Assembly (NCBI GenBank): GCA_024278755.1
Contig: JAJRSO010000069.1
Coordinates: forward strand, 1-64,000
DNA from: Calditrichota bacterium
GTDB taxonomy: Bacteria > Calditrichota > Calditrichia > Calditrichales > Calditrichaceae
Direction of reading: 5' to 3'
Length of the DNA stretch: 64,000 nt
The translations under genes and the position numbers were made by a program. The notes under the pieces were generated by a model. The model saw nothing but the letters and a program-made list of their open reading frames with translations, made no database searches and was not told the DNA's origin. Shown in pieces: positions 2,014 to 15,006 of the stretch; the first letter of the stretch is position 1, and the number at the start of each line of letters is the position of its first letter.

Positions 2014-3753
2014 TCAGGAACGAAACCGTCGCATATTTTGGTTATTTTCAATCTGATCCAAAAAAATTTTTACAATTTCAGGATCAAATTGTTCTCCGGC
2101 AAACATACGTAAATTATCTTTAGAAACAGACGTTGGAAGCGCTTTTCGGTAGGGACGCGCTGATGTCATCGCATCGTATGAATTACAAACCGACAAAATC
2201 CTGGTTCCCAGTGAGAGCTCATCTTTCCCAACCTTATGCGGATATCCCCTGCCGTTATAAAATTCATGGTGGTGCAATGCCATATCAACAATCGTATCAT
2301 TAAATCCCGCTGCCTTAAGAATTTTAGAACCCTCTACGGCATGTTCAAGAATTTTTTCTTTAAGCACATAATTCGAATTGGAAAATTTTGCTCCGTTTAA
2401 AAGATATTTATCAGAAACAACCACTTTGCCAATATCGTGCAACAGCGCACCGGAGCTAAAATCGCTTATCTCTTTGGAAGATAACCCCATTTGTTTGGAA
2501 ATGATATTGACATAATTTGCCGTACGCATATTGTGCCCGCGGGAATAGATATATCTTGTTTCTAATGAGTTAAGCATCGCTTTCATGGTTTTGGAATAAA
2601 ACTCACGATAGTCGTGGGTCATCTGTGTCTGTTCCAGCACAAATGAAGTTTGATTGGCAATAATCGAAATCAGGCTGATATCATCTTTGCCAAACGGAGC
2701 GCCGCTTATCTTGCCGCCGATCATAAATAAAGCCGAGAGGTTGCCTCTTACAAAAACCGGACAGATTAAATCATTCTTAAAAATATTTAAAATTTTTATC
2801 TCATCCATATACAAATGGTTTCGCGGAATCTGGCTTACGAGAACCGGTTCCCGAATGGAGTTCAGTATTTCAATCAGATTACTATCCAGATAGAAGCGGA
2901 TTTTTTTTAGATCTACCGAGCGCAGCCCTTTTTGCAGATAATAACTAAAAAAATGGTTGTCTTTCTTTAAGCGGGTCATAAGCATGGCATGCTCGCTGCC
3001 AATTTGCCCAACGGCTGTCAAAATAAACGACATCAGCACTTCTTTGGCATCATTTTTAACTTTTAACTGGCCGCTAAGGCTAAGAATGTTTTGAATTTCT
3101 ATATCCCGTTTGCGAACATCTTTGTTTAATACTTCCGCATGCTGACGGCTTACCTTTAACTGGCGCTCCAGATTTTTTGCTTTGGTATGCAGCCGAACTT
3201 TCGAATCCTGCAACCCTCTCTGATGGTCCTGCATTTCGCGGATGGTATGTGCCGTCGTAAGCACACTACTCATTACCAGAATAAAAATAACCGCCTGCGC
3301 AATAAAGACAGTAATTGGTTGTTCAACGGTTCCGCTGATACCAAACATAAATGAAGAGACAATAAAAAGGCTGAAAAAGACGCTAAGAATTTGTTGCAGA
3401 TCTTTACCGCTAAAGAGCATGGGAATGCTAACCAGCGACAAAACGGGTAAAACCAAATAAAAAATATTCTGCGGAATAAAAGGGAAAATTAAAAAGAAAA
3501 ACACAGGAAGTTCGATGAACAATAGAATTTTAGCCGCGTTTTTTTCGAATTCTTTATTTACATAAATCGTACCCCAAAAGGCCGTTGTAAATACAGACAG
3601 AATAAAAGAAATCATCAGTATTTTAAATAGCAGACTACCGGATTGTGCGCCCGAAATAAAAAACAGGGAAAACAATAGCGCGCTGCCGGCTATCTTAAAA
3701 TAAAAAAAGAACTTTGACGGGTTCTCTTCGATATATTTATAAACTGTCTGCAT
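2014..3753 (-). CDS. Membrane HD-GYP cyclic-di-GMP phosphodiesterase with GAF domain
   Basis: This 579-aa protein should hydrolyse c-di-GMP. Residues about 15-180 carry five or six hydrophobic membrane segments, followed by a coiled coil at about 180-225, a GAF-like domain at about 240-380 and an HD-GYP domain at about 390-570. The metal-binding HD motif is visible as LLHDIGK near residue 438, and the GYP signature as HHEFYNGRGYP near 500, followed by the usual SVCNSYDAMTSARPYR stretch. All key motifs are present, so it should be active. It is the last gene of a series containing a diguanylate cyclase and a TPR protein and starts 7 bp after the TPR gene, which implies translational coupling. 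The signal sensed by the membrane and GAF parts is unknown. Confidence 0.9.
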   Translation of the reverse strand: MQTVYKYIEENPSKFFFYFKIAGSALLFSLFFISGAQSGSLLFKILMISFILSVFTTAFWGTIYVNKEFEKNAAKILLFIELPVFFFLIFPFIPQNIFYLVLPVLSLVSIPMLFSGKDLQQILSVFFSLFIVSSFMFGISGTVEQPITVFIAQAVIFILVMSSVLTTAHTIREMQDHQRGLQDSKVRLHTKAKNLERQLKVSRQHAEVLNKDVRKRDIEIQNILSLSGQLKVKNDAKEVLMSFILTAVGQIGSEHAMLMTRLKKDNHFFSYYLQKGLRSVDLKKIRFYLDSNLIEILNSIREPVLVSQIPRNHLYMDEIKILNIFKNDLICPVFVRGNLSALFMIGGKISGAPFGKDDISLISIIANQTSFVLEQTQMTHDYREFYSKTMKAMLNSLETRYIYSRGHNMRTANYVNIISKQMGLSSKEISDFSSGALLHDIGKVVVSDKYLLNGAKFSNSNYVLKEKILEHAVEGSKILKAAGFNDTIVDMALHHHEFYNGRGYPHKVGKDELSLGTRILSVCNSYDAMTSARPYRKALPTSVSKDNLRMFAGEQFDPEIVKIFLDQIENNQNMRRFRS

Positions 3754-3760
3754 ATTAAAA

Positions 3761-4909
3761 TTACCGTAAAATAGCCCTAAGAAGAATTAAAAATTCTTTG
3801 CCGTCATTTTCGACCAGTTTCTTGTTCTTTAGAGCTTTGTTAAATGACGGATTAATTTCCAGGGCTTTATCAAATTCACTCAGCGCCTGTAAAAACAGAT
3901 TCCTGCACTGGATAAGATGCACAACGCCTAAATTATTCCATAAATCCGCATAATTCGGATGTTTATCAATAGCGCTGCTTAAACGTCTTTCGAATTTTTT
4001 AATAATTCTATTATTTAAGCCTTTACCGCCATACATAAATTTTAAATAAAAATCCATTCCTATCAACCCCAGCACTTCACGGGGGAACACCTTATCCCGG
4101 TTATGCAACAGGATTTCCAAAGCATTTTCGATTTCCGAATTTTTTAGCGCTTCATCCAGTCTGCTGTATACGGCATTAAAAGCCGGAATATCCGCTTCGG
4201 TCAATTTTAATAACTGGTACTGTGCGCGTTCCAGACGAATGGAAGGCGGAGGCATTTTGGTATCGCTTTTATCGGCCAGCACGCTTTCCAGATATACGAT
4301 GGCAAGGTTGTATTGTGCTTTTGAATAATTGGGATTCAGACGAAGCGCTTCCTGAAAATTCTGCAAAGCATTAAAGTGCTGTTTTTGATTTAAATATGCC
4401 AATCCCAGATTATGATAAATATCCGCATAAGGGCGGCCTTTTTCGAGGGCGTGCTTTAAATAATTTACCGCTTTTATGTTTTGGCCGCTTAAAATATGCG
4501 CCAGCCCAAGATTATTAAGCGCTGAGGCGGAATCGGGATCGATTGAAAGCGCCGTTTCAAATTGCTGAATCGCGTCTTTCATCAGATTGTTATGCAAAAA
4601 AAGCAGACCCAGCTTAATATTAGAGGGAGCATGACGGAGTTTTTTCACTTTATCTGCAATTTGAAACATTAGATCAATTTCACCTACGGTTTCCTGATGC
4701 AAATCCGATACAATCCGGCGGATTCTCTGTTCCATAGATTCTTCGTCGCTGGCGCGCCTGCGTTCGAACTCTACGACCTGCGTCGTTATCAGCCGCCCCT
4801 CCTCAAACACTTCACAACGGGCCGCGCCTTTATTTAAACTGCTCGCTGTCTGGATATGAAATTTCCGTCCTTCGACGACAATGTTATCATTATATCCAAT
4901 ATCCGACAT
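3761..4909 (-). CDS. TPR repeat protein between cyclase and phosphodiesterase
   Basis: This is a 382-aa cytoplasmic protein with no signal peptide. Residues about 110-215 contain three clear TPR units with the usual pattern (ALNNLGLAHILSGQNIKAV, YHNLGLAYLNQKQHFNAL), and a fourth, more diverged unit lies at the C-terminus (about 320-370). Residues 1-75 form a separate small beta-type domain (VEGRKFHIQT, CEVFEEGRLITTQVVEFERR) that I associate only loosely with hypothetical proteins of other Gram-negative bacteria. Its position between a GGDEF and an HD-GYP gene suggests a scaffold for c-di-GMP enzymes, but that is inference from context. Confidence 0.75.
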   Translation of the reverse strand: MSDIGYNDNIVVEGRKFHIQTASSLNKGAARCEVFEEGRLITTQVVEFERRRASDEESMEQRIRRIVSDLHQETVGEIDLMFQIADKVKKLRHAPSNIKLGLLFLHNNLMKDAIQQFETALSIDPDSASALNNLGLAHILSGQNIKAVNYLKHALEKGRPYADIYHNLGLAYLNQKQHFNALQNFQEALRLNPNYSKAQYNLAIVYLESVLADKSDTKMPPPSIRLERAQYQLLKLTEADIPAFNAVYSRLDEALKNSEIENALEILLHNRDKVFPREVLGLIGMDFYLKFMYGGKGLNNRIIKKFERRLSSAIDKHPNYADLWNNLGVVHLIQCRNLFLQALSEFDKALEINPSFNKALKNKKLVENDGKEFLILLRAILR

Positions 4910-5071
4910 TAAATACCCTTTCTTCTCGTGCTGCCGCTTTAATTAAAATCCTATTTCCGTCCGTTACCAATAATACGATGAAACCGTTAAAAAGGCAACA
5001 TAACTACTTATTTTTTTTAGCCCTTATTGTTTACATTTTTTTAAATCGAAACCGGCGGTATTTTATATAAA

Positions 5072-6712
5072 TTATTTTTTATTCTTTTTTCCGGCCGGTT
5101 TATTTTCATAGAGCGTAAACATATTCCGGCCGGCCTGTTTCGAAGCGTATAATGCCGTATCGGCACACTTAACCAGCCCTTTAAAATCTTCGGCGTCATC
5201 CGGGAAGACAGCGCCCCCCAGGCTAATTGTCAAACGTCCGCCGGGCTGAACTTCTTCCCGGTAAAATCCGGCTTCTTCGATGCTGCTACGAATACGCTCG
5301 GCTAAGACATGCAGCGATTTTTTAGGCAGATCGGGCAATACGATGGAAAACTCTTCGCCGCCATAGCGGTTTACAATATCTTCGTCTCTCGAAACAGCGC
5401 GCAAAATCCTGCCGATACCACGTAGCGCTTCGTCTCCGGCCTGGTGCCCTAAACTATCATTGTAGTTCTTAAAATTATCGATATCCAGCATTAATAGGGA
5501 AACACAGGTTTTTCTTCGGCGGGAACGGTTTATCTCTTCTTTTAACCGCACTTCAAACGAACGGTAATTATTTAAATCGGTCATGGCGTCGGTTAGCGAC
5601 ATCTTTTTCACACTCTCATACATACGCGCATTGCTTACGGAAACGGAAATGATATTGATTAGAATACTGAACATTTGAATATCATTGGCATCAAAATCTC
5701 CGCCAAATAGTTTTTGTCCACAGCCGATAATTCCCAGCATTCGATCCGAATAGACAATAGGCGCCAGAATATAAATATGTTCCTTTTTTAAACGCGTCGT
5801 TAATTTTTCCATTTCGGGCAGCTGGGCAAGGTCGTCGGTATAAACAGGTTGTTTTCGTTTTGTCAGGTATTCTACAATGGGGGCATTCCATTCGATAAAA
5901 AACCCTTCGGAGTCGGCGCCAAATCCTTTGCTAAAATGCTGTAAATAGGCGCCTTCATCCGGCTGATTGAGCAGGGCAAACGATTTTTCGCAACCCAGCT
6001 GGCCCACTAAAATAAGCAAAGCCGAATTAATAAGTTGTTCCAGGTCTAAAATCGAATACAGTTCGCTGCTGATTTCCAGAATATTATTAATTTCGTAGGA
6101 ACGCCGGCGCAGGCTGCGATCGGCTTCCAATAGTTTTTGGCGTAAGGCATCCGTTTCATTTTGCAGAGAATCACTTTTAATACGCAGTTGTTCCAAAGCT
6201 GTCCGACCCTGAAGGGCCGTTACAGACCGGCGGATAAAGGTTATTAAAACATCTATCGTTTTTTTAGACTGACCGCTCATTTCTTCGAGCAATAACAACA
6301 TATAATAGCGTTGGTTTATGCAAAACAGAAAGCCAGACTGAAACAATTCGGCTTGCGCCGAATCCAGGATATGCCGGATTAGAGGATTACTTTTTTGTAG
6401 GTCATAAACGCCTGTATCGTCCGCTAAAAAATACAATTGGCGGGTAACTGCAATATGCCGCTGACGGGATTGGTTTGCGCTGTGCCAGATTTTATCGTTT
6501 GATTCATTATACAAAAAAAGTATCGAAAGACCGGATTGATCAATAACAGCCTGAATGCCTTCAACCATTTTCCGGTGAAATATTTCCGCCGATATTTTCT
6601 CTTCGGAATACGCTTCGAACGCATTAAAAACAACATGCAATACCGATAACAGGGTGGCCTCTTTATGCGTACCACTCGCGTTAAGTGTAAATAACCGTTT
6701 TAAATTAAACAT
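5072..6712 (-). CDS. GAF-GGDEF diguanylate cyclase
   Basis: This 546-aa protein is predicted to make c-di-GMP from two GTP. Residues 1-170 are a helical or GAF-like sensory region, about 170-215 a coiled coil, about 220-365 a second GAF domain and about 370-535 the GGDEF domain. The active site reads RYGGEEF near residue 449, a functional variant. The inhibitory site is also present: RDED lies exactly five residues before GGEEF, so product inhibition is expected. There are no membrane segments, so it should be cytoplasmic and respond to soluble signals. It follows the sigma-54 activator gene by 35 bp and precedes the TPR and HD-GYP genes. Confidence 0.9.
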   Translation of the reverse strand: MFNLKRLFTLNASGTHKEATLLSVLHVVFNAFEAYSEEKISAEIFHRKMVEGIQAVIDQSGLSILFLYNESNDKIWHSANQSRQRHIAVTRQLYFLADDTGVYDLQKSNPLIRHILDSAQAELFQSGFLFCINQRYYMLLLLEEMSGQSKKTIDVLITFIRRSVTALQGRTALEQLRIKSDSLQNETDALRQKLLEADRSLRRRSYEINNILEISSELYSILDLEQLINSALLILVGQLGCEKSFALLNQPDEGAYLQHFSKGFGADSEGFFIEWNAPIVEYLTKRKQPVYTDDLAQLPEMEKLTTRLKKEHIYILAPIVYSDRMLGIIGCGQKLFGGDFDANDIQMFSILINIISVSVSNARMYESVKKMSLTDAMTDLNNYRSFEVRLKEEINRSRRRKTCVSLLMLDIDNFKNYNDSLGHQAGDEALRGIGRILRAVSRDEDIVNRYGGEEFSIVLPDLPKKSLHVLAERIRSSIEEAGFYREEVQPGGRLTISLGGAVFPDDAEDFKGLVKCADTALYASKQAGRNMFTLYENKPAGKKNKK

Positions 6713-6747
6713 CCGGAAGAACCCCGAAAGTAAAAGAGAATCAGCGC

Positions 6748-7687
6748 TTATTTCAGCAACTTTCGTACTGTTTTTATATCTGCCTTTAAAATCCGGGCAG
6801 TTAACTTTTTATTATTTTCGCTGATTTTGTAGATATATTTAGTATAATCTTTTTTTATTTGATCTAAAGTTTTGTATCGAGACGCGCCTAATAAAAGAAC
6901 GCTCTCTGCAGAATCAAACATTACGGTGGGTAAATCATCTATTTCGATGGTTTTTTTTTTTGGAAATCATCAACACTTCAACAACATTTTGCACTTCCCG
7001 AATATTGCCCGGCCATAAATAGTGCTCTAAAACATCGAGTACCAAAGGATTTATTTTAGGAAAGGGGATTTTTTTTTGCTCCACGTATCGGTGTATAAAA
7101 AGATTAAAAAAAAGAGCAATATCCTCCTTACGTTCCCGCAACGGAGGAAGATAAAGTTCGAATGTATTTAAACGGAAATATAGGTCTCTGCGGAACTTGT
7201 GTTCTTCCACGGCACGGTTAATATCTGTATTTGTGGCAGCTATAATGCGGGCATTTATTTTTTCGGATTTGGTACCGCCAACCGGATAGTATTCCTTTTC
7301 ATCCACCACTTTTAGCAATTTTGCCTGAAGGTGCATAGGAATTTCACCGATTTCATCTAACAGGATAGTGCCTTTTTGGGCGGTAAAAAACTTGCCGACA
7401 CTATCCTTATAGGCCCCGGTAAAAGCGCCTTTGAGAACGCCGAACAGTTCGGCTTCTAAAAGATTTTCGGGAATAGCGGCGCAGTTGATATGGACAAAAG
7501 GTTCTGATTTACGCCCAGACTGAAAGTGAATATGGCGGGCTAATTCTGTTTTTCCGCTTCCGGTTTCACCGGTAATTAAAACGGGGAGTTCTGTTTCGGC
7601 AATTTTATGTACCTTATCCAGCATAGCGGCAACAGCCGGATTTTTAGTTAAGTACTCATTTTGCCGAATTTTTTTTTTACGAACCAT
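6748..7687 (-). CDS. PspF-like sigma-54 activator, frameshifted at an 11-A run
   Basis: This is an enhancer-binding ATPase with no N-terminal sensor domain. Residues about 20-245 form the AAA+ core, with Walker A GETGSGKT, the sigma-54 contact loop GAFTGA, DEIGE and WPGNIREVQN. As written, the reading frame stops at 6935, a few codons after an uninterrupted run of 11 A (complement of 6951-6961). Removing one A joins the core to a further 67 codons ending at TAA 6748. That tail has the usual TIEIDDLP linker and a Fis-type helix-turn-helix (NNKKLTARILKADIKTVRKL), giving a 312-aa protein. The short form would therefore lack DNA binding. A second run of 10 A lies directly after the third codon. 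There is no obvious Shine-Dalgarno sequence before the ATG at 7687. Slippage, phase variation, real decay or a sequencing error are all possible. Confidence 0.85.
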
Positions 7688-7753
7688 ACAATTATCAATG
7701 TGCTTACGGACAGAATCCTGTACGCTTATTTTGTTCTGGTGTGTCTGCCGGAA

Positions 7754-9040
7754 TCAAAACCCTTTTTTTATATCTATGGGAACGGTTTTTTTCAATTCTT
7801 TAATCCATTCCGAATATTTTGTTTCCATTTTATGATTGAGAGCCATTTGTTCGATGCGTCCCCAGTCTTTTTCCAGCGTAAAGGTTCGGGCGGCCTGGCG
7901 GTCGTTCAATTTAACAATATGATATCCGAAGTCGGTTTTAAAGGGAGCGCTGATTTCTCCCGGCTTCATTTTTTCTACAACCGTTTTAAACTGCGGAATA
8001 ACCATTTGATCCACTTCAAAAATACCAAGGTGGCCGTTGTCTTTGGTTACATTGTCATCTTCGGAATATTTCAGCGCAAGGCTATCAAAATCCGCTCCCG
8101 CCAGCGCTTGCTCTCGGATCTCATTTAACTTATCGATTACACGCTGTTCGTCGGCCTCGGTGGGCGTAACCCGTACCAAAATATGACGGGTATCTATTTT
8201 TTCTCCCCGGCGTTCAATCATCTGAATGATATGAAAACCAAACTGCGTTTGAACAATATCCGATATTTCTCCGTCTTTTAACTGATAGGCTGCCGCTTCA
8301 AATTCCGGCACAAAATCCCCCCGGCTGATCATCCCAAGGTCTCCTCCACGCTGCGCCGAAGCGGGATCGTCGGAATATTTTTCGGCTTCTTTGGCAAAAT
8401 CTGCGCCGTTTTTAATAGCTTCGTATATTTTACTTATTTTTTTAAAGGCTTCATCCTGAGAAGAATCCGAGGCTTTTACAAGCATCAGAATATGGCTGAT
8501 ATCCACTGTTTCTTTAAGATCGGGCAGACTGTCTTTGTACACTTTATAAAAGGCTTCAACCGCCCTGCGCGATACTTTTAAATCTCTTAGTTTAGCAGCG
8601 CGAACCTGCTCCACCAGAAGCTGTTCTTTAATAACCTTACGCGTATCATGTTTAATTTTTTTCATAGAGCTGCCAAACACTTTTTCCAGCTTATCTTCCG
8701 AACCGGTCTGACCGATTAAATACCGTATCCGTTCATCCACTTTCTGATCCAGCATCGCCTCGTCCACCTGCAGCGTATCCTCTTCGGCCTTGGCCAGTAA
8801 TAGCTTTTGTTCAATCAGCTTTTCCATTGTTTGTAATTTTAACCTGTTGAGCAACTGCTGATTATTCTTTACATCGATCCTGTTTTGTACCACATAACTT
8901 TGGACATATTGCTGAATCTCTGAGCGCAGGATAATTTCTTTACCAACAATGGCTGCTATCCCGTCCACTAATTGCTGTGCCTGTACTGTAGTGAAAAACA
9001 GAGGTAGCATAAGAATGCTTCTTAATACGAATGTACGCAT
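7754..9040 (-). CDS. surA: SurA-type periplasmic peptidyl-prolyl isomerase
   Basis: This 428-aa periplasmic chaperone should help outer-membrane proteins fold. It has a signal peptide (MRTFVLRSILMLPLFFTTVQA), a SurA-type N-terminal region (IAAIVGKEIILRSEI) and two consecutive parvulin domains at about 175-275 and 285-390. Each shows family hallmarks: HILMLVK with FGFHIIQM, and HILVRV with FGYHIVKL. Its length matches E. coli SurA. It is 12 bp downstream of the interrupted PPIase gene and is the third PPIase gene in a row. The usual partner lptD is not nearby. Confidence 0.92.
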   Translation of the reverse strand: MRTFVLRSILMLPLFFTTVQAQQLVDGIAAIVGKEIILRSEIQQYVQSYVVQNRIDVKNNQQLLNRLKLQTMEKLIEQKLLLAKAEEDTLQVDEAMLDQKVDERIRYLIGQTGSEDKLEKVFGSSMKKIKHDTRKVIKEQLLVEQVRAAKLRDLKVSRRAVEAFYKVYKDSLPDLKETVDISHILMLVKASDSSQDEAFKKISKIYEAIKNGADFAKEAEKYSDDPASAQRGGDLGMISRGDFVPEFEAAAYQLKDGEISDIVQTQFGFHIIQMIERRGEKIDTRHILVRVTPTEADEQRVIDKLNEIREQALAGADFDSLALKYSEDDNVTKDNGHLGIFEVDQMVIPQFKTVVEKMKPGEISAPFKTDFGYHIVKLNDRQAARTFTLEKDWGRIEQMALNHKMETKYSEWIKELKKTVPIDIKKGF

Positions 9041-9052
9041 ACGAAATACCTT

Positions 9053-9910
9053 TTATTCTTTTATTTTGCTTAGATAGGTCTGAATCTGAGCATTGTTTTT
9101 TGTTTCTTTTAGCAAACGTTCTCTTTCTTTTTCGCGCCGCTCCCGTTTAATACGGAAAATAATTTGATTCTTAACCAGATCCAGTTCCCGGATGGTTCCT
9201 TTTTTCTCCAAATCCAATAGTTGTAAAAAATGGTAGCCGTCTTTTGTTTTAATCGGCTTCGAAACGGCGCCGGTTTTCATCCGCTTTAGCGTGCGGATAA
9301 AATTATCCGGAAGAACGTTTAGAGGCACATATCCCAAATCGCCATTCGGTTGTTCTTTGGTTGATTTTTCATCAAAATAATAGCGTTTAATAAGCGCGGA
9401 TAAATCATCGGTCTTTTCAATTTCCTTAAAAATAACCTTGTCACGGTGTTAGACAAACAGGTGTACCAGGTGTACTTCGTCTTCCCGCCTTACAAATTCC
9501 CGGCGATGTTTTTGATAATATTCTTCTATATCCTGATGTGAAACGCTATACTCTTTATCCAAACGGGCATTTAAAAAACGCTGGACTAATAATGATTTAC
9601 CATATTCACTAATATAAAAATTCTCTTTAGGACTAAATTTAAAACCTTCCTGAAGCGCTGCCTGATATAACACTTCATTTTCAACCCATTTGGAGATTAT
9701 ATCTCTTTTTAAAACAAGCGCCGTCTCGTTATCCAGACCGTCCGGCAAACTGTAATCCAGTTGTTCTTTAACGAGATAACTATCGTTTACCTGAGCAACC
9801 ATATCTTCGGGCGGCTGGTTGCGCTGCCCGCACTGATTTACTAAAACAAGAAAAAGAGCAGCCGGTATGAATAACCGGATGCTCTTTTTTAGACGGTTTA
9901 ATACAGACAT
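9053..9910 (-). pseudogene. Parvulin-type PPIase lipoprotein interrupted by one in-frame TAA
   Basis: A single frame of 286 codons runs from the ATG at 9910 to a TAA at 9053, broken only by TAA at codon 154 (9449-9451). The first part has a signal sequence with a Cys near residue 27 (a poor lipobox, LVNQC) and a SurA-like helical region. The second part has the parvulin core ending (GDLGYVPL, KDGYHFLQLLDLEKKG) and a charged C-terminus. The codons on both sides of the stop make sense in the same frame (VHLVHLFV, stop, HRDKVIFKEIE), so one base change would restore the protein. The gene overlaps the preceding PPIase by one base (TGATG) and is followed by surA after 12 bp. It may be a recent nonsense mutation, a site of readthrough or a sequence error. 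Confidence 0.82.
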
Positions 9911-11607
9911 CAGATTTTTTCCACCAACGCTGTATTGATTTTAACGGAGTATTTGTTCCGCAGTTCTTTTTCCCAGGCCGCACGAAGTTCTTTGGATTTC
10001 ATATTCTGAATCTTATTTTTTACCTGAGTGCGAACTTCATTAAACGGGCGTAATGTTTTTTCTTTGCGTTTACCTGTCTTAAAAACAGCCCAACCGTTGC
10101 GATACTTCACCGGGCCGCCTATTTTCCCGGGGCCAAGCACAAAGGCTTCTTTCGAAACAGCGCCTCTGCGGTTCTCGGCTTTATATCCCAGGTAACCTTT
10201 TTTCTTTTGATAATATTTATCCTCCGAATAACGGGTTGCTAATTTCTCGAAGTTTGAACCGGCTTTCGCTTTTCGGGCAATTTTTTTGGCCAGGTTTTCA
10301 TCGGTTACATAGATTTCCCAAAGTTCTATCTGCGCGGGACGTTCATATTCGGTAGGGTGTTCATCATAATATGCCTGAACTTCTGCATCGCTAACCTGCG
10401 CCTTATCCTGCACTTCATGTTTCTCTGCCAAACCGGCCAGGCGGGTATCTTTTGCATTTTGCATCTGCGTCTGAATATCCGCTTCTTTATCAATACCCAT
10501 TTTTTCAGCATCCTGAATCACAATATCCAGCAACGAAGCATTGTTTACTTCCTGGGTTAAGGCCTCTTTACTCTTTAAACGGGATTCCAGCATTCGAAAC
10601 CGTTTTCCGTAAAAATTAAAAATATCATTCAGCACCAGTTTACCGCCGGACCATTCGGCCAGTGGAAGATTTCGTTCCTCATCGGTAAACCCGTCGGCGC
10701 CGGAGCCCGGTTTTTTGGTTTTTGCCGCTTCTGCTATTTTTTCAATATTTTCATCAATGGTTTTATAGTCGTAGTCTTTCCGTAGTTTTTCGCTGTGACG
10801 ATTCCACATGGCCGCGCCGCTATCCTGCCTTGACGGGTAGAGCCGGCGTTTAAGGTTTAGCTTTTCTTTATCAAAATTTGCCGGATTATAGGCGGGATTG
10901 GTGCGCCGATCTTCCACTTTAATAATATGAAAACCAAACGGTGTTTCCACGACGTCGGATATTTCGCCGCTTTTTAAGGCAAAGGCCGCGTTTTCAAAAG
11001 AAGGCGCCATACGTCCCTTTGAAAAATATCCGAGATCGCCTTTACTTTTTGCAGACGGACCATCCGAATTCTTCTCTGCCAGCGTTCCGAAATCCTCACC
11101 GTTTTTAGCGCGTTTAGCCAGCTTTGCCGCAATGGCGGCGGCCTCTTCTTTTGTACGATTTACCGTACTGCGCTGAGCGCCTTTATAGGCAATCAGTATA
11201 TGACTGGCTTTTACCTGCTCTTTGTTTTTATCAAACTCCGCCCGCAATTCACTTTCCGGAATGAGCTTATCGACAATTATTTTTTCAAAATAGCGATTGC
11301 TAAGCATGCGGGATTTAAGCATTTTAATATCGGCTTTGTACGATTCATCGTCTTCAAGGCCTAATTTCTCGCCGTCCATCGCCTTCATCTTGTTCAGAAT
11401 CATTTTGTTTAACAGGCTCATTTTAACCGCCGAGTCCACCTCGGCATACGAGTCTTTCGGCCCAAACCGCCGGCTTAAATTTTGTTTAAAAACTTCGGCG
11501 GAAATCTTTGCTCCCCCTACTTTGGCTACCGTATCATCCGATAAACCGCAACCGGTCAGATAGAGCAGGCCACTTAATAAAAATGTAAATAAAACGACTT
11601 TACGCAT
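9910..11607 (-). CDS. Double-domain parvulin peptidyl-prolyl isomerase lipoprotein
   Basis: This 565-aa lipoprotein has a clear lipobox (YLTGC, Cys at about residue 20), so it is probably anchored in the envelope. A complete parvulin domain lies at about 130-240 (ASHILIAYKG, GDLGYFSKGRMAPSF, FGFHIIKVEDRR). A second, more diverged one lies at about 420-530 (IELWEIYVTD, KKGYLGYKAENRRGAVS, GWAVFKTGKR). It is PrsA- or PpiD-like and should act on periplasmic proteins. It follows mfd by 75 bp and overlaps the next PPIase start by one base, giving three PPIases in one transcription unit. Confidence 0.88.
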   Translation of the reverse strand: MRKVVLFTFLLSGLLYLTGCGLSDDTVAKVGGAKISAEVFKQNLSRRFGPKDSYAEVDSAVKMSLLNKMILNKMKAMDGEKLGLEDDESYKADIKMLKSRMLSNRYFEKIIVDKLIPESELRAEFDKNKEQVKASHILIAYKGAQRSTVNRTKEEAAAIAAKLAKRAKNGEDFGTLAEKNSDGPSAKSKGDLGYFSKGRMAPSFENAAFALKSGEISDVVETPFGFHIIKVEDRRTNPAYNPANFDKEKLNLKRRLYPSRQDSGAAMWNRHSEKLRKDYDYKTIDENIEKIAEAAKTKKPGSGADGFTDEERNLPLAEWSGGKLVLNDIFNFYGKRFRMLESRLKSKEALTQEVNNASLLDIVIQDAEKMGIDKEADIQTQMQNAKDTRLAGLAEKHEVQDKAQVSDAEVQAYYDEHPTEYERPAQIELWEIYVTDENLAKKIARKAKAGSNFEKLATRYSEDKYYQKKKGYLGYKAENRRGAVSKEAFVLGPGKIGGPVKYRNGWAVFKTGKRKEKTLRPFNEVRTQVKNKIQNMKSKELRAAWEKELRNKYSVKINTALVEKI

Positions 11608-11682
11608 TATACCTCCTAATAAAAAAAATGAGTTGGTTTTTACATAGCATTAATACGAAATTTATAAAAACGAATGTTTAAT

Positions 11683-14600
11683 TTACCTATTTTCGTCTAT
11701 GGTGCGCAAAAATATTTTGGCAAAGTCCAAAGTGTCTACGCGCGTATGTCCCTGTAATTTTATTTCCACTGCCAAATCTTTCTGGTCCATAAACCGTACT
11801 GCCGCCATTCTCTGCTGCATCAGTCGCGGAATCATTTCCGAAAAAAAACGATCGTCGTGCTGCGCCTCTTCGGCAAAAAACAATTTCATCCGGTCGGATT
11901 TCAGCACAATTCGTTTGGCATAGAGCCGGGCCGCCAGCAGTTTTATCTCGACCGCCGATAAAAAATGTATTACTTCCTGCGGCAGTTTCCCAAAGCGATC
12001 TTCCAGTTCCAGCTTCATTTCGCTTATCTGATCGCCTTCCGAAAAATTTACTAAACGATGGTAAACCGTAATTCGTTCCATTTCGCCGGGAATATATTCT
12101 TCTGGAATAAACAAATCGAAATCCACATCCAGTTTAGCATCCGTTTTTGGGTTGCTTTCGGTCGCGGTTTCGGCAAATTCTTCGCCCGGCGTCAGCCCCT
12201 GTTTCAGCTCGTTTACCGCTTCATCTAAAATTTTGCAATACAAATCAAAACCGACCGTCTGCACAAAGCCGCTCTGTTCTTTTCCCAGTAAATTACCGGC
12301 CCCGCGTATTTCCAAATCCCGCAGGGCAATTTTATAGCCCGAACCGAGATCGGTAAAATCCTGAATGGCCCGCAGCCGTTTGCGCGCTGTTTCGGTTATC
12401 TTATCCATCGAAGGAATAAGCAGATAAGCGTAGGCCTGCACATTGGAACGGCCCACCCGGCCGCGCAACTGATACAATTGCGACAGGCCAAAGGTGTCCG
12501 CCCGGTTGATAATGATAGTATTTACATTGGGAATATCCAGGCCATTTTCGATAATCATACTGGCGACCAGCACATCGTATTTATGATGCATAAAATCGAG
12601 CATGGCCTTTTCTAACTGTTTTTCCGGTAGCTGTCCGTGGGCGGCTTCCACCCGGGCCTGTGGCACCAGCGTTCGCAATGTATCGCGAACCGCGTTGATT
12701 GTCTGTACCCGGTTATGCACAAAATAGACCTGACCGCCGCGGTCGATTTCCGCGCTTATTATCTGATACAAACGGTCCTCGTCCCAATTAATAATTTTAG
12801 TCATTACCGGCAGACGGTTAGCGGGCGGCGTATCGATATTGGATAAATCCCGGGCGCCCATCAAAGCCATATGCAGCGTACGCGGGATGGGGGTCGCCGT
12901 CATGGAAAGAATATCCACGGATAAGCGGTATTTTTTCAGACGCTCTTTCTGTTTTACGCCAAAACGCTGTTCTTCGTCCACAATCAGCAGACCCAAATCT
13001 TTAAACTGTACATCCTGCGAAAGCAAGCGGTGTGTTCCGATGACTAAATCTACTTTTCCCTGAACCAGTTGTTCCAGAATTTTTTTTTGCTGCCCGGCCG
13101 AGCGAAAACGGTTTAGCATTTCCACCTGAACCGGAAATTCTTTTAACCGCTCTTTAAATGTTTCATAATGCTGAAAGGCCAAAATGGTCGTGGGCACCAG
13201 AACGGCCGCCTGTTTGCCGTCCATAATGGTTTTAAAAGCCGCGCGCAGGGCCACTTCCGTTTTCCCAAAGCCTACATCCCCGCAAAGCAGACGATCCATC
13301 GGTTTTTCATTTTCCATATCGGCTTTAATTTCGGCAATGGATTTTAACTGGTCTTCCGTCTCTTCGAAAGCAAAAGAAGCTTCCAGTTCTTTTTGCCAGT
13401 GGCTGTCTTCGGCAAAGGCATATCCGCCCTCCGCCTTGCGGGCCGCGTATAACTGAATCAATTCGGCGGCGGTCTTTTTTAAGCTTTCTTTTGTTTTTTG
13501 TTTGGTGCGCTCCCACTCGGTTGTTCCGAGTTTGGTCATTTTAGGCTGAACGCCTTCTTCGGAGCCGAATTTCTGCACCCGGCTTAAATTATCCACCGTT
13601 ACAAAAAGATGGTCGCCGTCGCGGTAGGCAATTTTAATACACTCTTTTTTGGAGGCGCCCAAATCCAGCATTTCCATGCCGAGATACTGACCGATACCAT
13701 AGTCGATATGCACTACAAAATCATACACATTAAGCGAACTAAGCTGGCGCAGGTATTCGCCGTTTTTAAAGCGTTTGTAGGTGCGCCGCCGCTTAAAACG
13801 GTTAAAAATCTCATGATCGGTTAAAACAAAGATATGGCCCTCGGAAAGACTAAAGCCATTGTGCAAAGCGCCTACTTCGATACGGCCGTTAAAGGGAATT
13901 TCTTCTTCCTCGATAATTTCATTTATACGGTCGGCCTGACTCGGATTAAGGGTTTGAATAAAGAGTTGCGCATGCGGATCGGTTTTATAGTGTTTTATCA
14001 GATATTGCAAAAACAGTTTTACGCTGCCGTTAAAATCAGGATGCGGCTTTACCTTAAAATCAATTGCCGTAAAAGACGCATCCTGAATCAGGTCGCTTTT
14101 ACACAGCGTGTACGTTTCGAATAGTTTCTGTAGCCGTTCTCCGGAAAAATATCGCTCCGCAGGCGGCGGTTCTTCGATATTTTCGTCCTGTAATTCTCTG
14201 TATTTTGCTTCGGCAGCGCTAAAAAGCGCTTCAGTTTTTATAAGGATCTCCTGGCTGTCTTCTATAAAAAAGATGGTTTCTTCGGGAAGAAAATCGCTGA
14301 TAAACGCTTTGGCGGAGGCGTCATTAAACAGATTGGGGAGAATGGTTATTTCATTCATTGTTTCGATGGAACGTTGCGAAAAAACGTCAAACTTACGAAT
14401 GGATTCGATCTCATTTCCGAAAAATTCAATTCGCAGCGGGTCTTCATAATTCCACACAAACAGATCGATAATGCCGCCGCGCACGCTGAAATCGCCTACT
14501 TTTTCCACCATCTCTTCGCGTTTTAAACCGCCTTTCTGAAGCTGGGACACCAGATGGTCAAAAGGGATACTGCCGCCTTTTTTTAAATAGAGCTGTCGGT

Positions 14601-15006
14601 CCAAAAACTGTTCGGGCATGGGAAAACTGCTGACCAGTCCGGCCGGTTCGGCCACGGCAATCCATTGTTCCGATTCAATAAAGGCCTGCATAGCTTCGAT
14701 ACGTAAACTCAGTTGGCTAGGGCTGGGATGGCTCTGGCTATACGGCTCAAACTCGATGGCAGGTAAAAAGACGACCGGTACGTCTTTGCAGATTAACTGT
14801 AAATCGTCGTACATGCGCTCGGCGGAATCCAGGTCACTGGCCAGATACAATAACGGCCGTTTCATTTCCCTAAATAAATAGGAACCGATAAAAGCGCGAA
14901 AGGAGCCCGGAATGTGTTGGAACTGAACTTTGTGCTTTTGTGCAAGCTGCGCTGCCGTTTGCCGCAGAGCGGGATGTTCGTAGATTTTTGATTTCAGAAT
15001 GGTCAT
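11683..15006 (-). CDS. mfd: Transcription-repair coupling factor Mfd
   Basis: Mfd is the ATP-dependent translocase that removes stalled RNA polymerase at DNA lesions and recruits UvrA. At 1107 aa it is close to the family length. The N-terminal UvrB-like region includes FSVRGGIIDLFVW. The polymerase-interaction region follows (VHIDYGIGQYLGMEML). The helicase core shows Walker A GDVGFGKTEVA, the DEEQ box (IVDEEQRFGVKQ), SMTATPIPRTL and the translocation region with QLRGRVGRS. The C-terminus is a TRCF domain. It starts 8 bp after the TPR gene at 15015-15866 and precedes the PPIase genes. Confidence 0.97.
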   Translation of the reverse strand: MTILKSKIYEHPALRQTAAQLAQKHKVQFQHIPGSFRAFIGSYLFREMKRPLLYLASDLDSAERMYDDLQLICKDVPVVFLPAIEFEPYSQSHPSPSQLSLRIEAMQAFIESEQWIAVAEPAGLVSSFPMPEQFLDRQLYLKKGGSIPFDHLVSQLQKGGLKREEMVEKVGDFSVRGGIIDLFVWNYEDPLRIEFFGNEIESIRKFDVFSQRSIETMNEITILPNLFNDASAKAFISDFLPEETIFFIEDSQEILIKTEALFSAAEAKYRELQDENIEEPPPAERYFSGERLQKLFETYTLCKSDLIQDASFTAIDFKVKPHPDFNGSVKLFLQYLIKHYKTDPHAQLFIQTLNPSQADRINEIIEEEEIPFNGRIEVGALHNGFSLSEGHIFVLTDHEIFNRFKRRRTYKRFKNGEYLRQLSSLNVYDFVVHIDYGIGQYLGMEMLDLGASKKECIKIAYRDGDHLFVTVDNLSRVQKFGSEEGVQPKMTKLGTTEWERTKQKTKESLKKTAAELIQLYAARKAEGGYAFAEDSHWQKELEASFAFEETEDQLKSIAEIKADMENEKPMDRLLCGDVGFGKTEVALRAAFKTIMDGKQAAVLVPTTILAFQHYETFKERLKEFPVQVEMLNRFRSAGQQKKILEQLVQGKVDLVIGTHRLLSQDVQFKDLGLLIVDEEQRFGVKQKERLKKYRLSVDILSMTATPIPRTLHMALMGARDLSNIDTPPANRLPVMTKIINWDEDRLYQIISAEIDRGGQVYFVHNRVQTINAVRDTLRTLVPQARVEAAHGQLPEKQLEKAMLDFMHHKYDVLVASMIIENGLDIPNVNTIIINRADTFGLSQLYQLRGRVGRSNVQAYAYLLIPSMDKITETARKRLRAIQDFTDLGSGYKIALRDLEIRGAGNLLGKEQSGFVQTVGFDLYCKILDEAVNELKQGLTPGEEFAETATESNPKTDAKLDVDFDLFIPEEYIPGEMERITVYHRLVNFSEGDQISEMKLELEDRFGKLPQEVIHFLSAVEIKLLAARLYAKRIVLKSDRMKLFFAEEAQHDDRFFSEMIPRLMQQRMAAVRFMDQKDLAVEIKLQGHTRVDTLDFAKIFLRTIDENR

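Follow-up and report, generated by a model that had tools for sequence, protein, structure and literature searches.

A single extra adenine places a conserved DNA-binding tail out of frame in a sigma-54 activator gene of a Calditrichota bacterium

In the tssM1 gene of Citrobacter rodentium, a run of 11 A is followed 28 nt later by a premature stop, and the deletion of one A restores the full-length frame; the tssM1 mRNAs carry 10 to 15 A, and about 20–25% of the TssM1 protein is full-length (PMC4256274). Similarly, about 30% of the transcripts of frameshifted Blochmannia genes are full-length (PMC3017870), while flgR of Campylobacter jejuni, a sigma-54 activator gene, is switched off by insertions and deletions (indels) in A/T tracts (PMC3930126). 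Here, we describe a sigma-54 activator gene located within a 64,000-nt stretch of the genome of a Calditrichota bacterium (positions 1 to 64,000 of contig JAJRSO010000069.1 (C58), assembly GCA_024278755.1; hereafter, the window). The comparison of this gene with ten syntenic orthologues from the same Calditrichota family shows that one extra base within a run of 11 A (A11) precedes an intact DNA-binding tail, and that the tract itself is private to this genome.

The minus-strand open reading frame (ORF) 7687-6935 encodes 250 aa and contains a complete sigma-54 AAA+ core, in agreement with the original prediction, which was made from the sequence without database searches. The Walker A (GETGSGKT), GAFTGA, and Walker B (TILLDEIG) motifs were read directly in this ORF, and the Pfam search indicated the presence of Sigma54_activat (PF00158, 5e-65) and AAA_lid_14. 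Exactly 11 A are present at 6951-6961 (minus strand); they are followed by CCATCGAAATAGATGA, and the frame closes as NHRNR with a stop five codons past the run. The recomputed products have 312 aa for A10, 250 aa for A11, 249 aa for A12, and 313 aa for A13, and with A10 or A13 the frame reads on through TIEIDDLP and a Fis-type helix-turn-helix (HTH) to position 6748. The exact run, the nearby stop, and the continuation with 10 A had all been foreseen and were confirmed. At A11, the C-terminal Fis-type DNA-binding domain is encoded out of frame and is not in the translated product. Such a domain is usual in sigma-54 activators (bacterial enhancer-binding proteins), although it is not obligatory, as exemplified by Helicobacter pylori FlgR and by CtcC, which are devoid of it.

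The activator and its closest orthologue (genome G004, 63% identity) have no N-terminal, receiver-like domain of about 125 residues, which is present in the other orthologues, and the full-length activator therefore has the AAA+-HTH layout of PspF. It is not a PspF equivalog by the NCBIfam cut-off (230 vs. 443.55 bits, the score referring to the core only). Sigma-54 itself is encoded in the genome (rpoN; PF04552 at C11, 4e-59), and the sigma-54 promoter motif had 10 matches in the window, an uninformative number given a chance expectation of 8.8.

As read from 6951 to 6748, the tail shares homology with the C-terminal ends of the ten orthologues. A profile constructed from all eleven tails matched PrrA, Fis, and NtrC-family activators (NtrC) in their DNA-binding domains. 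HTH_8 (PF02954) was matched by five of the 11 family members (best 1.2e-5), the window's own tail alone being below a match to it. A structural model of the tail, with a mean predicted local distance difference test (pLDDT) score of 77 and values exceeding 90 in the final 37 residues, was nearest to the DNA-binding domain of Aquifex aeolicus NtrC1 (4l5e; Foldseek probability 1.00, E 0.12). The Fis-type assignment thus holds at the family level. When the divergence of tails was set against that of cores, the mean residual was +0.014 here and from -0.062 to +0.055 in the other genomes; in this test no relaxed constraint past A11 was seen, and the tail carried no further lesion. As the tail is as conserved as in the intact relatives, the lesion is recent, or not real, or bypassed. 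The earlier statement that the downstream sequence has stayed coding is in line with this result, and no degenerate tail, which would have told against the original prediction, was found in the ten orthologues.

In all ten orthologues, core and tail constitute a single open frame. Across the junction, no gap is needed to align the window's A10 frame with these orthologues (ISKKKTIEIDDLP vs., e.g., MYMKPETITLDMMP), and A11 is therefore one base above the ancestral frame. No A run longer than eight was found anywhere in the activator gene of any of the ten orthologues (the longest was A8), hence the private character of the tract.

We consider the chance to be close to even that A11 is a recent and real indel of one base, located in a lysine tract specific to this lineage, i.e., a leaky allele and not a selected device. 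In such a case, the gene would be that of a PspF-like sigma-54 activator, composed of an AAA+ core and a Fis-type tail, with no receiver domain, in which a lysine-codon A tract was acquired in this lineage just ahead of the tail, and a recent replication slip from 10 A to 11 A would have thrown the tail out of frame. If A11 is genomic, RNA polymerase slippage would yield transcripts with 10 or 13 A and, judging by the tssM1 and endosymbiont precedents, some full-length activator beside the 250-aa core, whereas the core-only form, incapable of enhancer binding, would have little effect at normal levels, as may be presumed from PspF deprived of its HTH. For each half of the proposed mechanism, precedents exist in other bacteria.

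The similarity to tssM1 is close. In both genes a premature stop closely follows A11, removal of one A restores the protein, and two length variants are expected; the same geometry, i.e., a run of at least nine A directly before a premature stop with the frame regained when the run loses one A or gains two, is present in the activator gene. In tssM1, however, slippage, heterogeneous mRNAs, and a requirement for both forms were demonstrated, while the present case is known from its sequence and concerns a transcription activator. The frameshifted Blochmannia genes resemble the activator in having one indel within a long run of A and a downstream frame that is otherwise conserved, but they come from AT-rich, reduced genomes with more than 100 tracts of at least nine A within genes, compared with 182 A/T runs of at least nine in the 3.9 Mb examined here overall. 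If A11 is real, the gene probably leaks through RNA-polymerase slippage as tssM1 does; this presumes a similar slippage behavior of RNA polymerase in this phylum and in Escherichia coli, for which the dnaX tract described below is the sole indication. The description of the tail as "switched off" was too strong, as A11 in tssM1 still gives about 20% of full-length protein (PMC4256274). The core-only form is probably weak at its native level: chromosomally encoded PspF1-275 fails to support Psp expression (PMC3709507), while natural activators without a DNA-binding domain are represented by FlgR of H. pylori and CtcC of Chlamydia (PMC3930126, PMC7482065).

The production of a free DNA-binding piece by internal restart was also considered. 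The ATG overlapping the TGA (ATGA) lies in the third frame, which stops after five codons, and a restart at the in-frame ATG located 13 nt further on, lacking an obvious Shine-Dalgarno sequence on direct reading, was rated unlikely.

Poly-A slippage of the dnaX type, known with A9 in Thermus and with A10 in other genera (PMC1088944, PMC3711429), provides a second point of reference. The dnaX gene of this genome contains exactly A10, in the same phase and at the end of the clamp-loader (gamma) part, as do 10/10 family relatives covering the site, and in the sister family within the same order the tract is A10 or A9 in 6/6 genomes, while the flanking bases differ among the genomes. This tract is likely a slippage site, in agreement with the known dnaX type, and its conservation suggests that poly-A slippage is in use in this lineage. 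In the genomes G004 and G019, the dnaX frame ends just past the tract, and tau itself would therefore need recoding there.

Like dnaX, the activator gene has a long A tract through which one gene might give two products, and it could be imagined that A11 is maintained as a programmed device, in which slippage of RNA polymerase or of the ribosome sets the ratio of the core-only to the DNA-binding form ahead of the c-di-GMP (cyclic di-GMP) genes. The tract length and geometry shared with tssM1, where both forms matter (PMC4256274), and the family's apparent poly-A recoding at dnaX speak for it. Nonetheless, the dnaX tract is kept across the family and the order, while that of the activator occurs in one genome only (0/10 orthologues), which weighs against a programmed device, and the rest of the family keeps a single uninterrupted frame. 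Very little probability is thus left for it, and an equally slim one for its extension, in which the slippage-set ratio would lead to mixed hexamers tuning the downstream c-di-GMP operon, with the gene made switchable by its two other A tracts. Of the proposal that one locus gives a 312-aa and a 250-aa protein, the lengths stood, whereas the notion of a locus built for two proteins was not supported.

Returning to the recent, real indel, several observations weigh against it. A11 comes from a single draft assembly (3.94 Mb, 79 contigs, 95.8% complete), and the full-length product is a predicted one. The contigs of G001, a genome of the same genus with 81% DNA identity, miss the activator gene, one (of the flanking pair C36 and C154) ending at window position 8601 and the next starting at 5824, and a scan of genome contigs returned two family relatives and no closer strain. 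Moreover, among the tracts of the assembly that clearly lie within conserved genes, A11 is the longest, and it is therefore the likeliest to be miscounted. A consensus or assembly error, with a true run of A10 and an ordinary 312-aa activator, would explain why the alternative length corresponds exactly to the ancestral frame, and in a large survey singleton frameshifts in conserved proteins were ascribed mostly to sequencing error (PMC3711429). On the other hand, homopolymers sampled across the assembly by pattern search (A/T runs numbering 160 at length nine and 22 at greater lengths) gave a different picture: the other long tracts examined that are clearly within genes, including the A10 tracts of mutS, dnaX, and the activator start, were all in frame, no clear case of a split gene was found among 30 A9 tracts checked, and the four other runs of at least 11 are localized outside reading frames or at their ends. 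Furthermore, in about 29 kb of the window comparable with relatives there were two lesions only, the activator frameshift (with no other frameshift) and the stop described below. A general homopolymer error in the assembly is not evident, and an error at this particular run appears somewhat unlikely, though it deserves serious consideration.

The in-frame A10 tract of mutS (L129:1502-1511) is shared by no family relative, and an indel in it would disable mismatch repair.

Two other long A runs, A10 and A9, occur in the activator gene, so that three of the six A/T runs of at least nine in the window fall within it. For a single site, three or more such runs are expected in 940 bp with a probability of 1.3e-5; genome-wide, the probability is about 0.055, which makes the clustering suggestive but weak evidence. 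It might reflect reversible phase variation, with replication slippage at A11 (and at A10 and A9) toggling between full-length and core-only forms in the population, as reported for C. jejuni flgR, likewise a sigma-54 activator gene thrown out of frame by A/T-tract indels. However, the flgR variants were observed in a population, whereas the activator is known from one assembly, the tracts are not retained in relatives, and the true reversibility of short flgR tracts was disputed in a review (PMC8355987). We regard phase variation as distinctly unlikely.

As far as the neighborhood is concerned, the gene order Mfd, PpiC, PpiC, PpiC, activator, GGDEF, TPR, HD-GYP is kept within the family and is complete where contigs are long enough (Table 1). 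The conserved set (window 2014-15006) represents a fixed link of folding factors, activator, and c-di-GMP enzymes, and the c-di-GMP neighborhood indicated in the original prediction was found in its GGDEF and HD-GYP genes. The second PpiC gene carries a second disabling lesion, 2.5 kb from the activator, the TAA being GAA in G001 and the gene being open there and in all eight other relatives that cover it. This raises the question of ordinary decay, in which the activator would be losing its function along with the adjoining PpiC gene. Yet, the two lesions may have arisen independently within the 29 kb, the tail and the core are otherwise normally conserved, and the gene set is retained in ten relatives, which makes such decay highly improbable. 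In the same comparison, antisense ORF matches with several stops were discarded as artefacts, and a stop seemingly present in the window's first gene precedes the start codon and is no lesion.

Table 1. Features of the activator locus, its neighborhood, and the dnaX tract (window coordinates unless a locus is given).
Feature	Position	Strand	Evidence
Sigma-54 activator, AAA+ core-only ORF, 250 aa (GETGSGKT, GAFTGA, TILLDEIG, WPGNIRE; ends with ISKKKNHRNR and stop)	6935..7687	-	ORF, Pfam, NCBIfam comparison, orthologue G004
A11 run; core and tail in one frame if A10 or A13	6951..6961	-	sequence, recomputed products
Out-of-frame tail, TIEIDDLP to VRKLLK and stop, Fis-type helix-turn-helix	6748..6950	-	homology to C-termini of ten orthologues
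A10 run, in frame, codons 4-7 of activator gene; absent from orthologues	7669..7678	-	sequence
A9 run, in frame, within AAA+ core; absent from orthologues	7069..7077	-	sequence
PpiC/SurA-like peptidyl-prolyl isomerase, intact, directly upstream of activator	7754..9040	-	ORF, Pfam, synteny
Second PpiC-like gene, broken by in-frame TAA at 9449-9451	9053..9910	-	comparison with G001 and relatives
Third PpiC-like gene, intact	9910..11607	-	ORF, Pfam, synteny
GAF-GGDEF diguanylate cyclase (GGEEF), 35 bp downstream of tail stop	5072..6712	-	ORF, Pfam, synteny
TPR protein of conserved gene set	3761..4909	-	Pfam, synteny
HD-GYP-type (GAF-HD_5) protein of conserved gene set	2014..3753	-	Pfam, synteny
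dnaX A10 tract	L135:1502-1511 (this genome); relatives L212-L221, L240, L242, L246-L249

A two-form regulator, if true, would matter more than a leaky allele, but the comparative evidence opposes it. Gene callers would record the activator as a protein without a DNA-binding domain. If A11 is real, the locus would constitute a natural test of RNA-polymerase slippage masking frameshifts in free-living bacteria beyond the well-studied groups.
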